Assembly (NCBI RefSeq): GCF_010119975.1
Contig: NZ_CP048222.1
Coordinates: 5,164,501 to 5,228,500 of the forward strand
Reading direction: 5' to 3'
From: Rhodocytophaga rosea
GTDB lineage: Bacteria; Bacteroidota; Bacteroidia; Cytophagales; 172606-1
DNA length: 64,000 nt
Part shown: one piece after another, positions 43,307 through 49,619 of the stretch
How positions within the stretch are numbered: position 1 is the first letter of the stretch
Layout of the letters: every line of letters starts with the position of its first letter
Made by a program: the position numbers and the translations under genes
The notes under the pieces: generated by a model
The model's database searches: none
What the model was told of the DNA's origin: nothing
What the model saw: the letters and a program-made list of their open reading frames with translations, nothing else

Positions 43307-44524
43307 ATGATTCAGTACTTTAAAAAGATTTGTTTTACAGGTATTTTATTTGGCATACTCATTTTGTATAACAGTTCTTCTCCTTATAAAAAATTGTATA
43401 TTCTTTCTGTAACCGCTGGAGACCATAACCGGAAGTCTGCACTGGTTTCTTTTCCGGTTCCGCCTGAATTACTGAATAAGCAGTTGTATCTCCGCGACGA
43501 AAAAGGCAATAAAATCGCCATGCAGGTAAATCAATATGAGGAAGGATTTTTTTTTATGAATGCCATAAGGGCCGGAGATGTAGATGAGTATTATATAGAA
43601 ACAGGAAAATATAAGGGCGAAGAAGTAGAAGTGAAGGAAGAGAAAAAGCAAATCCAGTTTACAGTTCATGGGAAACCGGTGATTTCTTACCATATAGAAG
43701 GTGAACTGCCCAGAAAAGATATAGACTCGGTATATTTGAGGGGAGGCTATATCCATCCGGTATTTACACCTTCCGGTAAAATGGTAAGCGACGATTACCC
43801 ACCCAATCATATTCACCATCACGGCATATGGGCTTCCTGGACAAAAACCGAATTTATGGGCCGCAAACCTGATTTCTGGAATGTAAAAGATGGTACCGGA
43901 AAGGTAGAAGCGGTAGGATTACAAGAAAGTTTTCAAGGTCCGGTATATAGTGGATTTAGTGCCAAACATACGTATATTGATCTAACATCCGGAAAACCAG
44001 TGAAAGCGCTGGATGAAGTATGGGAAGTGAAAGTGTATAATTATCCGAATGCTACCTTTCATGTATTCGACCTGGAAGTTACCCAGAATTGTGCCACTGA
44101 CCAGCCTCTTATTTTACCTACGTATCATTATGGTGGGGTAGGTTTCCGGGGCAATCGCCAATGGGATGGCGAGCAGAATACTACTTTCCTGACTTCTGAA
44201 GGTAAAGGCCGTAAAGAAGGGCATGCCACTAAAGCCAGGTGGTGCCATATTGGGGGCAAAGTAGATGGCAGTATGGCCGGTATTACCATTATGGATCATC
44301 CGCAGAATTTCCGTTCGCCTCAAGCCATGCGTATTCATCCGACTGAGCCGTTTTTCTGCTATGCGCCTTCCCAGGATGGGAACTGGCAGATCAATCCCGG
44401 TGAATTCTATACGGCTAATTACCGCTTTGTGGTATATGATGGCGAACCTGATGCAAATACGCTGGAGCAACTATGGCAGGATTTTGCGTATCCTCCGGGA
44501 GTAAGGCTTATTTCAAAACGGTAG
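43307..44524 (+). CDS. DUF6807/PmoA-family protein
   Basis: The 405-residue protein begins with a hydrophobic N-terminal segment (about 8-25) that may be a signal or anchor. The bulk is a beta-rich domain with conserved blocks HIHHHGIWASWTKTEF, TYHYGGVGFRGNRQW and PFFCYAPSQDGNW, which match the DUF6807 (formerly PmoA-like) family common in Bacteroidota and Planctomycetes. The name is historical; there is no evidence that this is a methane oxygenase subunit. Members frequently occur near sugar-utilisation genes. The function is unresolved. Confidence 0.8.
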   Translation: MIQYFKKICFTGILFGILILYNSSSPYKKLYILSVTAGDHNRKSALVSFPVPPELLNKQLYLRDEKGNKIAMQVNQYEEGFFFMNAIRAGDVDEYYIETGKYKGEEVEVKEEKKQIQFTVHGKPVISYHIEGELPRKDIDSVYLRGGYIHPVFTPSGKMVSDDYPPNHIHHHGIWASWTKTEFMGRKPDFWNVKDGTGKVEAVGLQESFQGPVYSGFSAKHTYIDLTSGKPVKALDEVWEVKVYNYPNATFHVFDLEVTQNCATDQPLILPTYHYGGVGFRGNRQWDGEQNTTFLTSEGKGRKEGHATKARWCHIGGKVDGSMAGITIMDHPQNFRSPQAMRIHPTEPFFCYAPSQDGNWQINPGEFYTANYRFVVYDGEPDANTLEQLWQDFAYPPGVRLISKR

Positions 44525-44586
44525 GATAGAAGATTACAAGATTAGAACATGTAGAAGATTTGTCCCTTAGTTATCCCGGTAATTAC

Positions 44587-44622
44587 AAGAGCACAAACGA
44601 TTGACCGTTTGTGCTCTTTTTT
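44587..44622. terminator. Terminator between the DUF6807 and LytTR genes
   Basis: AAGAGCACAAACG (44587-44599) and CGTTTGTGCTCTT (44606-44618) pair perfectly over 13 bp around a 6-base loop. The T-run following on the plus strand indicates termination of the DUF6807 transcript. Confidence 0.88.
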
Positions 44623-44639
44623 GAATAACGAATAATTTC

Positions 44640-45362
44640 CTACAAACTAAGCAATTCTTTAAACCGGATAGCTTGCCTGCGGGATATTTCAATTTTGTCA
44701 CCCCCTTTTAAGGTTACCTGCAATCCGCCGCTGAACCAGGGTTCTATTTTTTCAATCCATTGCAAATTGATAATATGCTTGCGGTTGGCACGGAAAAAAG
44801 TATGAGGATCGAGGCGTTCATCTAAAGCATTGAGCGACTTAAGGATGAGGGGTTTCTGGTCGTCGAAGTGCAGGCGAACATAGTTGCCCATAGATTCGAA
44901 CAGGCGGATGCGGCTTAATTTAACGAACCAGCATTTTTCTCCGTCTTTTACAAAAACCTGATCTTGTTCGGTGAGCATTTTTACATTTTCCTTGCGCTCA
45001 GTTTCCGTTTTCTGGTAATCTTCTACCTTATGAATGGCCTCTGCCAGCCGGTGTGTATCAATGGGTTTAAGCAGATAATCGAGGGCATTAAATTCAAACG
45101 CTTTTAATGCATATTCATCGTAAGCTGTTGTAAAAATAACATCCGGTACATTGCCTTCAATGGATGATAGAAGTTCAAACCCGTTTTTACCAGGCATTTG
45201 TATATCCAGGAACAGAAGATCCGGACTAAGTTGCTCAATTTTGTCTAGGGCATCTTCTGCATTTACGGCCTCTCCCACGACATTTATTTTAGGATACGCT
45301 TCCAGCAAACGTTTTAATTCGTTTCTGGCCAGTCTTTCATCATCTATAATCAGTGCTTTCAT
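44640..45362 (-). CDS. LytTR-family response regulator
   Basis: The 240-residue protein has a receiver (about 1-115) with acidic residues Asp7-Asp8, phospho-acceptor Asp53 in LLFLDIQMPG and YLLKPID. The LytTR DNA-binding domain (about 135-240) contains TFFRANRKHIINLQWIEKIEP. It lies 237 bases downstream of the intact LytS-type kinase on the same strand, and the two probably form a two-component system. The pair is separate from the kinase/LytTR group at the window start. Confidence 0.93.
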   Translation of the reverse strand: MKALIIDDERLARNELKRLLEAYPKINVVGEAVNAEDALDKIEQLSPDLLFLDIQMPGKNGFELLSSIEGNVPDVIFTTAYDEYALKAFEFNALDYLLKPIDTHRLAEAIHKVEDYQKTETERKENVKMLTEQDQVFVKDGEKCWFVKLSRIRLFESMGNYVRLHFDDQKPLILKSLNALDERLDPHTFFRANRKHIINLQWIEKIEPWFSGGLQVTLKGGDKIEISRRQAIRFKELLSL

Positions 45363-45599
45363 ACGTTTATTTTCAATATGGCTTGCAAAAAGTGAAGCTA
45401 TACATTTAAATATTGAATATCAGAAAATTTGGAAATTAATTGTACAAATACAAACCTTCGGATTGAATAATACCCACTCTTCAAAAACTCAGACTAGCTT
45501 ACCGGTTGGGAATCACCGAACGGTTTGGTATTCGATAATCTAAAATTATATACCATCTGGAAAGTCTAACTCAAATGAGCCAGTACTGCTGATTTACTG

Positions 45600-46706
45600 C
45601 TATTGTTGTAGCCCGGCTGGTTTGGGTTTGCTTTTTTTTATTTCCTTACGGGTTGGTTCCAGGGAAGGATGGGCTGGCAGAATCACTTGTGCACATACTA
45701 CTTCTTCCGCTTCCTGCTTGATTTCAAAATTTGCCTGGCTTCCAAAAATGAGGGCCAGCCGCTGGGTAGTATTTACAAGGCCAAAACCATCGGAGTTTAT
45801 CTGATGCAATACACCAGTATTGCGGATAGAAATATAGGCTTTGTCGTCTTTTATTTCGGCATCTACCGTAATAAATCCGCCTTTCAACGGTTTGGATATG
45901 CCATGTTTTACTGCGTTTTCTACCAGGGTTTGTACCATCATAGGCGGTACTTGCACCGGAAGCGCTTCGGGTTGAATGTTCATACGTGCGCTCAGGCGGT
46001 CTTCGTAGCGGATTTTTTCGAGGGCTAAATAATCCTGTACTGTTTTTAATTCTTCTTCGAGGGTAACTGTTTTGCGGCGGTCAGCAAGCAGGGAATTTCG
46101 GAGCAGGTTAGAAAGCCTGGTGACAGAAATCTGCGCTTTTTCCGGATTTTCCAGAATTAATGCCCGGATACTATTGAGGGAATTGAACATAAAATGCGGA
46201 TTAAGCTGCGAACGTAGTATTTTCGCTTCAAAATCCCGTACCGAAGAAGTAAGCCTTACTTTTTCTACTTCATTCTTTTTAGAACGTTCAAAATACTGGA
46301 ACAGGTGGTAAATTACCGACCACAATAACAAATGTTTGCCCCAGTTGATGATGAAAAATACGATGCCTTCCAGCGAAAAATATTTGCGTATATCCGGCAC
46401 CGTATAATAATCGAGCAGGATACTGAGCATAACCATTACAATCGCCATTAGCAACACAGAAGCCGCAATCCTAGGTACGAGTTGACTTAACGGTAGATCC
46501 AGCCAGGAAAGCCGTTTAATAACCAAGCGGTACGCATGGGTAACAGAAATTCCCAGCACAATGGTAATAGCGGCATTAATTAATAAGCCATCGCTGTAAC
46601 CGAAGCGGTAGCTGTAAATACCCAGATCGTTCAGACAATAAGCTGTCCAGCCGGCAATCTGACAGATCCAATAGATGGTGATTCGATTCATTCGCACAAT
46701 TTCCAA
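45600..46706 (-). CDS. LytS-type membrane sensor histidine kinase
   Basis: The 368-residue protein has four membrane segments in residues 10-135, a short coiled coil, and a kinase region with the intact phospho-acceptor motif NPHFMFNSLN (His171). The ATPase domain has an N-box (VQTLVENAVKHG) and a G-box-like GFGLVNTTQRL. It should autophosphorylate and pass phosphate to the LytTR regulator encoded downstream. Its membrane domain is almost duplicated by the short gene just upstream (46751-47206). Confidence 0.92.
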   Translation of the reverse strand: MEIVRMNRITIYWICQIAGWTAYCLNDLGIYSYRFGYSDGLLINAAITIVLGISVTHAYRLVIKRLSWLDLPLSQLVPRIAASVLLMAIVMVMLSILLDYYTVPDIRKYFSLEGIVFFIINWGKHLLLWSVIYHLFQYFERSKKNEVEKVRLTSSVRDFEAKILRSQLNPHFMFNSLNSIRALILENPEKAQISVTRLSNLLRNSLLADRRKTVTLEEELKTVQDYLALEKIRYEDRLSARMNIQPEALPVQVPPMMVQTLVENAVKHGISKPLKGGFITVDAEIKDDKAYISIRNTGVLHQINSDGFGLVNTTQRLALIFGSQANFEIKQEAEEVVCAQVILPAHPSLEPTRKEIKKSKPKPAGLQQ

Positions 46707-46750
46707 AAATTAAGAGCGCACAAGTCGCTATACTGTATTAAATGTAAATA

Positions 46751-47206
46751 TTAAAATTGATTATTTGCAAACTTCCTGGAACGTTCAAAATACTGGAACA
46801 GGAGATAGATCCCCGACCATAACAATAATAGTTTACCCCAGTTAATGATGAAAAATATTATGGATGACGGCGTAATATGTTGTTGTATATCTGGTACTGT
46901 ATAAAAATCCAGGAGAATAAAGAACTTTACCATTATAATAGCCATCAGCAGCACACAACTTACAATTTTCGGAACCAATTGACTCCAGGATAAGTCCAGC
47001 CAGCCATACTTTTTTATTATATGCCTGTAAATATGGGTAACAGAAATTCCCAGCACAATGGTGATAGCGGCATTAATTAATAAGCCATTGCTGTAGCCAA
47101 AGCGGCCGCTATGTATAACTAGATCGTTCAGACAGTAGGCTGTCCAGCCGGCAAACTGGCAAATCCAATAAGTGGTATTTTTGGTCATTTGCATCATAAC
47201 CTTCAA
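46751..47206 (-). CDS. Truncated paralogue of the LytS sensor: membrane domain only, kinase domain absent
   Basis: The 151-residue protein aligns without gaps to residues 1-143 of the neighbouring kinase. Both have YWICQ-x-AGWTAYCLNDL, then RFGYS-x-GLLINAAITIV, LGISVTH and a shared end QYFERS. After that match it stops within about eight residues (RKFANNQF). The kinase half is missing and cannot be recovered in any frame of the 44-base gap. It therefore looks like a partial tandem duplication of the sensor part. It could be a remnant, or it could form heterodimers with the full kinase and tune signalling. The upstream 437 bases hold no other clear gene. Confidence 0.8.
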   Translation of the reverse strand: MKVMMQMTKNTTYWICQFAGWTAYCLNDLVIHSGRFGYSNGLLINAAITIVLGISVTHIYRHIIKKYGWLDLSWSQLVPKIVSCVLLMAIIMVKFFILLDFYTVPDIQQHITPSSIIFFIINWGKLLLLWSGIYLLFQYFERSRKFANNQF

Positions 47207-47643
47207 ATTATATTTGAGGAATAAGATACCTAAATATATTCATTGTATACAGTCTGCAAAAAGCAGGCTAACTTAAAAAATGTAACAAGTTATTTAAAGA
47301 TACTAAACAAGCAGAAACAATAATAGTTTTATTACACCAATGGAAAGGAAAAGATATAAGAGGAAAATAGGAATGAGCGAAGAATAAATTTTTGCGACTA
47401 TTATGGTAATACGTAACAGACAATATAATCTCAGATTTTTTCTCTGAAAGTTGAATTTTACTGGAACATAATATATGCCAATTCTACCTATAGAAAGGGC
47501 AATTTTTAAATTAAGGACTAAGCTATTCCTTTGGATGCTTCTTAAGTGTAAGGCGCTGGATATAAGAAATATAGTCAAAAGCCGCCATTGATAAATAGCA
47601 GCTTTTACATGAAATCTATCGGTAATTTCAGGAAGGTGCTTGA
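47207..47643. other. Intergenic region without a supported gene
   Basis: These 437 bases contain no convincing gene. A 91-codon frame on the minus strand (47303-47578) has hydrophobic but composition-driven sequence and no recognisable motif. The region is AT-rich and may be what remains after the partial kinase duplication. No strong hairpin seen. Confidence 0.5.
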
Positions 47644-48021
47644 TTACATGCCTTTCTGTGTGGTTCCATATTTAATCACATCCCGGCCAGACTCGAATAT
47701 ATGACCATTTTCCCCATCAAAAATAATAGGAGTTCTGAGCAGACCTGGTTTCTGAGAAAGGATGTTGAGCCAGTTGCTGGCATCGAAACTCATACCGGTA
47801 TACTCTTCTTTATAAATATCAGATTCTTTGTCTACCAGTGCTTCTACATCTACCCCAAGTTTATCAGCTATTTCTTTAATCTGTGTGCTGGTAAGAGGTT
47901 CTTTGGTTACATCAATATCATGCACATGAGGTTTCAGTGCACTGGCATACCCATATCCTTCTTTATCAGAACGGCTGTTGCCTTTGTAAATAATCAGTAC
48001 GGTATCTTTGTTAAAGTCCAT
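47644..48021 (-). CDS. ArsC/Spx-fold (thioredoxin-like) protein lacking cysteines
   Basis: The 125-residue protein has the overall ArsC/Spx-family pattern: VLIIYKGNSRSDKE at the N-terminus, a central helical insert, LLRTPIIFDGENG near residue 92-104 and a final KYGTTQKGM. Arsenate reductase and Spx need a cysteine in the N-terminal loop (usually NPRCSKS). This protein has no cysteine at all, so it cannot work as a classical thiol-based reductase. It lies 66 bases downstream of the histidine phosphatase gene on the same strand and may be co-transcribed. The cysteine-less form may have a structural or regulatory role. Confidence 0.75.
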   Translation of the reverse strand: MDFNKDTVLIIYKGNSRSDKEGYGYASALKPHVHDIDVTKEPLTSTQIKEIADKLGVDVEALVDKESDIYKEEYTGMSFDASNWLNILSQKPGLLRTPIIFDGENGHIFESGRDVIKYGTTQKGM

Positions 48022-48087
48022 GTTTCAATTGTTTAAGGTTAGGCCACACCTGTATATACAGCAATTGAAAGTGTAGGAAATACCCGA

Positions 48088-48716
48088 TCAGGCATCAATT
48101 AACTGCTTCAGATGTGCTATGTCATTGAACGATTCTACCGTAAACAGGTTGCCAGTATAAGATAGTTTGTACAGGCACAGATTCTGGTGTTCAAACATAT
48201 CCATACATTGGAGGGATAATTCAATACCAGGCTAAGCAGAATCCGCATCGCTCTGCCGTGCATACAAATCAATATGGTTTCCTCTTCTGGACGGGATAAA
48301 ATCAGATCAAGCACCGGTTTCTGGCGGTTCTGCACATCCGTAGGACTCTCTCCCCCCTCAATCTGCAAGGTAACATCGCCTTTACTCCAGGCATCCAGTA
48401 CCTGATAATAATAAGCATCTTCCTCAGGTGTAATATGAATGCCTTCCCGGTATCCCCAGTTAATCTCATTGAGTCCGGCATGTGCCTCATAAGGAATACC
48501 TTCATCGATGAAGCCTTGCACCGATTGCATCGTGCGTTTCAGGGTAGAAATGTATATTTTATCGAAAGGAATATCTTTATAGAAGTCGTAAAATGCCTGC
48601 GCCTGCCGCCTGCCGGTTTCGTTCAGGTCAGAGTCTATACCTCCGCCCTGCACAATGCCCATGCGGTTAAAATTGGTTTGCCCATGGCGGATCAGGTATA
48701 TTTTTTTTGGTTTCAA
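48088..48716 (-). pseudogene. Histidine phosphatase (phosphoglycerate-mutase fold) interrupted by a one-base frameshift
   Basis: The frame starts with KIYLIRHGQTNFN (catalytic His11), has LNEINWGYREG and the second catalytic-site HGRAMRILLSL, so it is a histidine-phosphatase enzyme such as a phosphoglycerate mutase/SixA relative. After LVLNYP the current frame runs into a non-homologous tail that stops at 48135. If one C is added to the CCC run (48213-48215 on the minus strand), the reading continues as LQCMDMFEHQNLCLYKLSYTG and reaches a natural stop at 48088. The restored protein would be 209 residues. The site is a short G/C homopolymer, so this may be a sequencing error or a real mutation. 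Confidence 0.75.
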
Positions 48717-48962
48717 AGTGTAAAAGTATAAGTATATAAAACAGAATTAGAGAATGGCTAATACAAATATCCTGCAAAGGTAAGAGGATATTTTATTTTT
48801 CTGTATATACATATACTTCACTAAAGGCTACAGATAATGTATTGAAGTTGAACAAATGAACAAGGAATGTGAGTTCAGCAAAGCTAATAATGAATATTAG
48901 AGGAATGTTATATCTGGCTTTAACTGAATTCACTATTCCTTGTTCTCCATTCGATATTTCTA

Positions 48963-49619
48963 CTATTCGCCTCTTACGTAACTAAATTCTTTCCCTTGCA
49001 TAATCGGATGAGGTCCAGTTAGTGAATTTTTATCCACTTTCAATACCAGATTTTTGAATTCCACCTCTACAATCCAGCGTTCAATCCGGAATTCAAAATA
49101 ATTATGATCTTTTTCGGTAATAGTAAAATCAGAGAAACGGTCGGGCCAGAATTCATGAATCAAGGAAATTTGATCTATCTGTGTCTTGTCAAAAGTAATT
49201 TCACCATACTGGTTGGTAATGCCTTCCAGTTCACCTTGTGGCGTTTGAATACGGCAGGCAATATTCCGGAGCACCATCTGGTTAGGATCAGTGATCTTAA
49301 TTACGGTTTCATTATACTTGGTTTTCATGGACTTTACCAGGGCAAAGTCTTTTTCGGGTTTGGGTGCATTGTTGAGAATAATGCTGTCGCCCTTTTGTTC
49401 CCAGGTTCCATTGGCTTCCCGGTCTATGGCACCGTAGCTGAAAAAGAAATTGAATGTATTGTCTTTGTTAAAACGGAAGCCAGAGCCGACTTCCATTACG
49501 CCTTCCAGATAATACTCTCCGGTTTTCATGGGTTGTTTGGTTTGTGCATGTAGCATGTTTGTAAATAATAAGAAGGTTGATAAAGTGTAAATGATTGATA
49601 AACTGAATTTTTTGAACAT
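48963..49619 (-). CDS. Secreted protein of unknown function
   Basis: The 218-residue protein has a signal peptide ending near LLHAQ. The mature part is rich in beta strands and aromatic residues; motifs YYLEGVMEVGSGFRF and NGTWEQKGDSIIL resemble small periplasmic beta-barrel-like lipocalin folds, but I recognise no family. It has no membrane segment in the mature part. It lies alone between the phosphatase gene and the GMC oxidoreductase gene, divergent from the latter across a 301-base gap. Confidence 0.7.
   Translation of the reverse strand: MFKKFSLSIIYTLSTFLLFTNMLHAQTKQPMKTGEYYLEGVMEVGSGFRFNKDNTFNFFFSYGAIDREANGTWEQKGDSIILNNAPKPEKDFALVKSMKTKYNETVIKITDPNQMVLRNIACRIQTPQGELEGITNQYGEITFDKTQIDQISLIHEFWPDRFSDFTITEKDHNYFEFRIERWIVEVEFKNLVLKVDKNSLTGPHPIMQGKEFSYVRGE

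Follow-up and report, generated by a model that had tools for sequence, protein, structure and literature searches.

An open, kinase-less tandem copy of the membrane domain of an adjacent sensor kinase in Rhodocytophaga rosea, and its possible role as a decoy subunit

In the genome of Rhodocytophaga rosea, a short gene lies directly in front of a sensor histidine kinase gene and matches the membrane half of that kinase almost end to end. Does such a copy encode a protein that is kept for its own activity, or is it what is left of a failed duplication? We addressed this question in a window of 64,000 nucleotides (assembly GCF_010119975.1, contig NZ_CP048222.1, positions 5,164,501 to 5,228,500), to which the coordinates below refer. 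The short gene is named S here, and the kinase gene K. The features of the cluster are the following:

44640..45362, minus strand: response regulator with a receiver domain (PF00072) and a LytTR DNA-binding domain (PF04397), found by domain search
45600..46706, minus strand: K, a LytS/YehU-class sensor histidine kinase with an S-type membrane domain and PF06580, found by domain search
46707..46750, minus strand: spacer between S and K, whose similarity to the DNA in front of S exceeds that of shuffles only when both start regions are included
46751..47206, minus strand: S, a kinase-less sensor-domain protein with four predicted helices, from frame and domain searches

On the minus strand, S is the first gene of the cluster and is followed by K, whose likely start is the ATG at 46691, and then, after 237 bases, by the LytTR regulator gene. 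Upstream of S, positions 47644-48021 (minus strand) encode an ArsC/Spx-like small protein that scores below the NCBIfam cut-offs for ArsC and Spx; judged by eye, a similar protein adjoins the kinase in Rhodocytophaga aerolata. An Rfam search of positions 44000-49000 of the window gave zero matches.

The longest frame of S has 151 amino acids and begins with a TTG at 47206. The ATG at 47188 is more likely to be the start: Met stands at this position in 11 of 12 aligned rows, and the remaining one, L004, begins with a codon other than ATG, which the aligner rendered as M and which otherwise reads as L. S aligns with K without gaps for about 141-145 codons from the N-terminus of K, with 71% protein identity (E 5.9e-63 in a search of one genome) and 76% DNA identity over 131 codons, a likeness far beyond chance. 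The match breaks off two residues past QYFERS, where K runs on into PF06580; S closes with six residues that K does not share, FANNQF, and the stop codon. PF06580 (His_kinase) is absent from S at E values up to 1, while K matches it at 7.3e-27. Both parts of the original prediction that concern this structure, namely that S is a kinase-less tandem duplicate and that it ends just after QYFERS, were thus confirmed, and homology taken with position shows that S originated when part of K, its sensor half, was duplicated in tandem. Copies of the domain other than S and K were not found in the R. rosea genome (8.98 Mb) at E 0.001, nor again at E 0.1.

S is predicted to be a complete four-helix membrane domain. 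The AlphaFold2 model, built from a 76-row alignment, has four long helices (residues 9-36, 40-66, 74-103 and 113-149) with a mean pLDDT of 86.4 (range of the means across five models, 73.3-86.4) and a pTM of 0.77. In a hydropathy scan with windows of 19 residues and a threshold of 1.4, three peaks were found in S, three in K and four in a short copy from R. aerolata described below, so the number of four membrane helices in S rests on the AlphaFold2 model. The identity of S to the other 75 rows is 23-70%, apart from K at 71%. Conservation reaches at least 70% in 28 columns of the other 74 rows, and S keeps 25 of these, including all seven that are invariant there; the departures from the majority residue number three in S, two each in the R. 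aerolata short copy and K, and one in the R. aerolata ortholog of K.

The domain has no Pfam model: every Pfam family with a match hits 6 of the 76 members or fewer. Moreover, the classical 5TM domain of LytS, which we take to be the Pfam family 5TM-5TMR_LYT, is missing from the Pfam matches of all 76 members at E values up to 0.1. S had originally been described as a LytS sensor domain; judged by these matches, the name fits the kinase class only, and the membrane domain of S and K is different from the classical one. As regards membership of the LytS/YehU class, S has no PF06580 but does have a membrane domain found in such kinases. Among solved structures, the sequence gave a single match, a designed protein at E 0.46, and a Foldseek search with the predicted fold gave 34 matches up to E 10, the best at E 0.57 and none at E 0.001 or better.

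We then consider where similar copies occur. When named genomes were scanned with S by itself, 45 pattern matches came up, none of them a relative; in a search of 59 relatives' genomes, S matched 25. Across 390 genomes of the order, profile A1 had matches in 227 (E 1e-6 or better); it found 300 relatives, from which 79 named loci were kept. Of these loci, 75 have a frame that contains the PHF motif and is 300 residues or longer. The other four comprise two with an intact kinase in another frame (by eye), the R. aerolata short copy and a broken metagenome kinase. Among the matches listed (to about E 4.8e-16), the frames shorter than 300 amino acids are S, two R. aerolata frames and one metagenome copy (G002) with three stops, which is that same broken kinase. 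No further intact kinase-less copy was present among the order-wide matches listed or in the 79 loci; within this set, open kinase-less copies thus appear confined to the genus Rhodocytophaga. A related kinase in the Cytophagales metagenome genome YX1bin7 (L011/L118) is spread over several frames with stops, either by assembly error or by decay.

The congener that was compared is R. aerolata KACC 12507 (one genome). Its orthologous locus has the same order of a phosphoglycerate-mutase-like gene, an ArsC/Spx-like gene, the kinase and the regulator. The short copy is absent there, and no remnant of S was found upstream of the kinase (best tblastn E 1.5). R. aerolata contains a paralogous kinase at another locus, which is 60% identical to K over 338 residues and has one TAG inside and no other stop:

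L027:737-739 (G001:C169): in-frame TAG in the R. aerolata paralogous kinase, at a glutamine position just before LNPHFMFN (phospho-acceptor box)

As a result of this TAG, the sensor piece and the PF06580 piece are separate frames. About 200 bases downstream of the split paralog lies the R. aerolata short copy, which has 155 residues, lacks a kinase and ends in QYYQRS plus a short tail, so that its cut point is the same as that of S. It groups with the split paralog in the nucleotide tree (98%) and, at only 52%, in the protein tree, and it is therefore probably the product of a duplication separate from the one that gave S. The frames of this paralog locus, together with the three frames before them, were not found between the conserved flanking genes in R. 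rosea (tblastn E 1e-5). By eye, no response regulator was seen beside the split kinase among frames of at least 110 amino acids in 18 kb, and a search for a kinase remnant behind the short copy gave a score that 12% of shuffles reach. The original prediction had pointed to conservation in related genomes and to accumulated stop codons as the observations that would bear on it. The ortholog is not common to the one congener examined, but a similar kinase-less copy is found at another kinase of that congener, and S has accumulated zero stops.

When did the duplication take place? The trees disagree: the nucleotide tree groups S with K (80%), and the protein tree groups K with its R. aerolata ortholog (74%). 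AU tests rejected none of the three arrangements, with or without the tract described below (p 0.14-0.50 for the non-best arrangements in four data sets). A duplication after the split between R. rosea and R. aerolata is the simpler account, because R. aerolata has no short copy at the orthologous locus; an older duplication followed by loss is possible. In the nucleotide tree, the branch of S (0.267) is longer than that of K (0.053). Divergence between the two genes is unevenly distributed, and one part of S stands out:

47033..47088, minus strand: conversion-like tract within S that agrees with K at 55 of 56 bases, in identical runs of 25 and 30 bases that are one base apart

The run of 30 bases is the longest that S and K share (shuffle p 0.03). 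Codons for the same residue are identical between S and K in 18 of 20 cases within codons 28-51 and in 44 of 77 elsewhere (Fisher p 0.008, with boundaries set post hoc). Between K and its R. aerolata ortholog these codons show no such excess (6 of 18, versus 42 of 88 elsewhere). Local gene conversion between the adjacent genes is a plausible cause of the tract.

Whether S behaves as a constrained protein was analysed with our own branch codon model, because NG86 left dS undefined for many pairs. The model was fitted to 131 codons in sets of nine and four taxa, with seven foreground fits (five branches with nine taxa and two with four). For the S branch, omega was 0.33 against a background of 0.078 (nine taxa) and 0.30 against 0.057 (four taxa), with synonymous sites near saturation and a conversion-like tract that may bias the estimate. 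This is a four- to fivefold elevation, and a separate omega for S was clearly favoured (2dlnL 12.1 and 13.8, respectively). Compared with 1, the omega of S gave 2dlnL values of 4.0 (nine taxa) and 5.1 (four taxa) with one degree of freedom, a marginal difference that is uncorrected for the seven fits. The R. aerolata ortholog of K was clearly below 1 (omega 0.044, 2dlnL 31.6), while three other branches were inseparable from it: the R. aerolata short copy (0.22, 2dlnL 1.15), the split paralog (0.43, 2dlnL 0.25) and K itself (0.22, 2dlnL 0.09). In the 4-taxon set, K reached the upper bound (10) on a near-zero branch length, and that value is uninformative.

S has no internal stop and no indel relative to K over 141 codons, at a DNA divergence of 24%. 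In neutral simulations starting from K (300 runs), the frame stayed open in 17.7, 6.3, 3.3 and 2.3% of runs at 0.10, 0.15, 0.20 and 0.267 substitutions per site; starting from the R. aerolata paralog, it stayed open in 2 of 400 runs at 0.29 and 4 of 400 at 0.39 substitutions per site. These simulations leave out indels; S and K differ by none. Of the marks of a pseudogene, stops and indels are absent relative to K, and omega, at about 0.3, is marginally below 1. Taken together, the results speak for a protein that was constrained through at least much of its history, though more loosely than the family of K; the constraint on S is apparently relaxed and non-neutral.

The flanks of S were also screened. 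The noncoding DNA in front of S is slightly more similar to that in front of the R. aerolata kinase than any of 300 shuffles (score 39 against a maximum of 36), and this likeness would imply that S inherited the upstream region of the ancestral gene. The DNA in front of S includes the following site:

47231..47260, minus strand: promoter-like match TTTG-N18-TATATTTA upstream of S, from a pattern scan

We take the pattern to be the Bacteroidota-type promoter consensus. A second match to it, in front of K, coincides in part with the end of S. As promoters, both are weak candidates: the whole window contains 4 matches against a shuffle mean of 7, for a pattern that was shaped after the first site had been seen. 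Scans for sigma-70 promoters (10 versus 11.6) and terminators (4 versus 3.0) were near their shuffle means. No kinase-domain remnant was detected upstream of S, where the observed score was reached by 94% of 300 shuffles. When the 3' end of S was compared with K, the score exceeded 99% of shuffles, but this stretch takes in the end already known to be shared, and the alignment breaks off within the tail of S.

What, then, might S do? Kinases of the class of K act as dimers, and the DHp helix pair is the main dimer interface of kinases. The reading that we prefer, at a probability slightly better than even (about 0.52), is that S is kept as a free-standing membrane protein with four predicted helices that pairs with K or competes for its signal, and in this way damps or resets the circuit of K and the LytTR regulator. 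S would pair with K through the common membrane domain; as S has no DHp, such pairing must rest on the membrane part. Alternatively, S might compete for the signal of K by holding the ligand away from it. Mixed dimers of kinase-dead S with K would damp or reset the circuit formed with the regulator encoded alongside. A decoy or dominant-negative role, which was already suggested in the original prediction, agrees with a predicted four-helix domain that is intact, with a frame free of stops, with the retention of conserved residues and with the similar copy found in R. aerolata; the probably separate case in that species lifts S above an isolated accident.

The most serious competitor is that S is a decaying remnant, a failed partial duplication that drifts without giving a useful protein and that still reads open because it is fairly young and is restored in parts by conversion from its neighbour. 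We give this a substantial though smaller chance. An omega four to five times the background, divergence concentrated on the branch of S rather than that of K, a locus that R. aerolata does not have in common, the conversion-like codons 28-51, and the TAG-split kinase as an example of breakage of family members within the genus would all agree with it. However, it does not sit well with 141 codons free of stops and indels at such divergence, with an omega that is below 1, if marginally, in both data sets, or with the seven invariant residues kept in S. The kinase-less copy of the congener is open as well, which neutral runs preserved only in the few cases given above. On balance, a simple remnant is less likely than a decoy or dominant-negative protein. 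It is improbable, though conceivable, that S is an independent small membrane receptor or adaptor with a partner other than K. The protein of S changes faster than K, and the R. aerolata copy adjoins a kinase with no regulator visible by eye, so detached domains need not serve one circuit; nevertheless, S adjoins K on the same strand and keeps the conserved residues of K.

A broader and decidedly speculative idea is that Rhodocytophaga repeatedly frees the four-helix sensor from its kinase, and that the resulting stand-alone subunits join full kinases as tunable mixed receptors, in a natural decoy-receptor scheme; the repetition is suggested by S together with the separate copy and the stop-split kinase of R. 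aerolata. Should S be produced and pair with K, a bacterial kinase would have a natural decoy receptor that came from duplication and not from laboratory mutation, and the two species would offer two cases for testing what becomes of a sensor domain that has no kinase. As a remnant, S would instead illustrate the break-up of kinase paralogs.

Among the matches listed in the open-licence literature (titles and abstract openings), we found no paper on kinase-less sensor copies of the family of K, and of those naming both Rhodocytophaga and histidine kinase none was apparently on topic. Compared with known systems, S is closest to the LytS/YehU class (PF06580) with LytTR regulators, being a clear paralog of the membrane half with a PF06580 kinase and a LytTR regulator as neighbours; it differs from this class in lacking the PF06580/HATPase part and in its predicted four-helix domain, for which Pfam has no model and which is not the LytS 5TM domain. 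CbrX of Pseudomonas putida is likewise encoded by an ORF directly upstream of a kinase gene, that of CbrA, but it plays a role in CbrA expression via translational coupling, and the accessible text of that study does not describe it as a copy of the CbrA sensor domain (PMC6591292). In a study of VgrS, the authors propose that dimers may be disturbed by a truncated “decoy” kinase (PMC6237974). With respect to pseudokinases and dominant-negative variants, S is missing the catalytic domain. A catalytically dead ChrS of Corynebacterium glutamicum modulates signalling by its paralog HrrS, in a study in which truncated ChrS showed no significant heterodimerisation in a two-hybrid assay and removal of the DHp abolished its benefit (PMC9491836). 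These last two results count against the proposed pairing of S with K. ChrS, as described there, resembles S in that catalysis is lost, and it modulates a paralogous kinase; the ChrS variant, however, keeps its sensor and DHp and arose by a frameshift in laboratory evolution, whereas S has no DHp and is a separate duplicate gene (PMC9491836).
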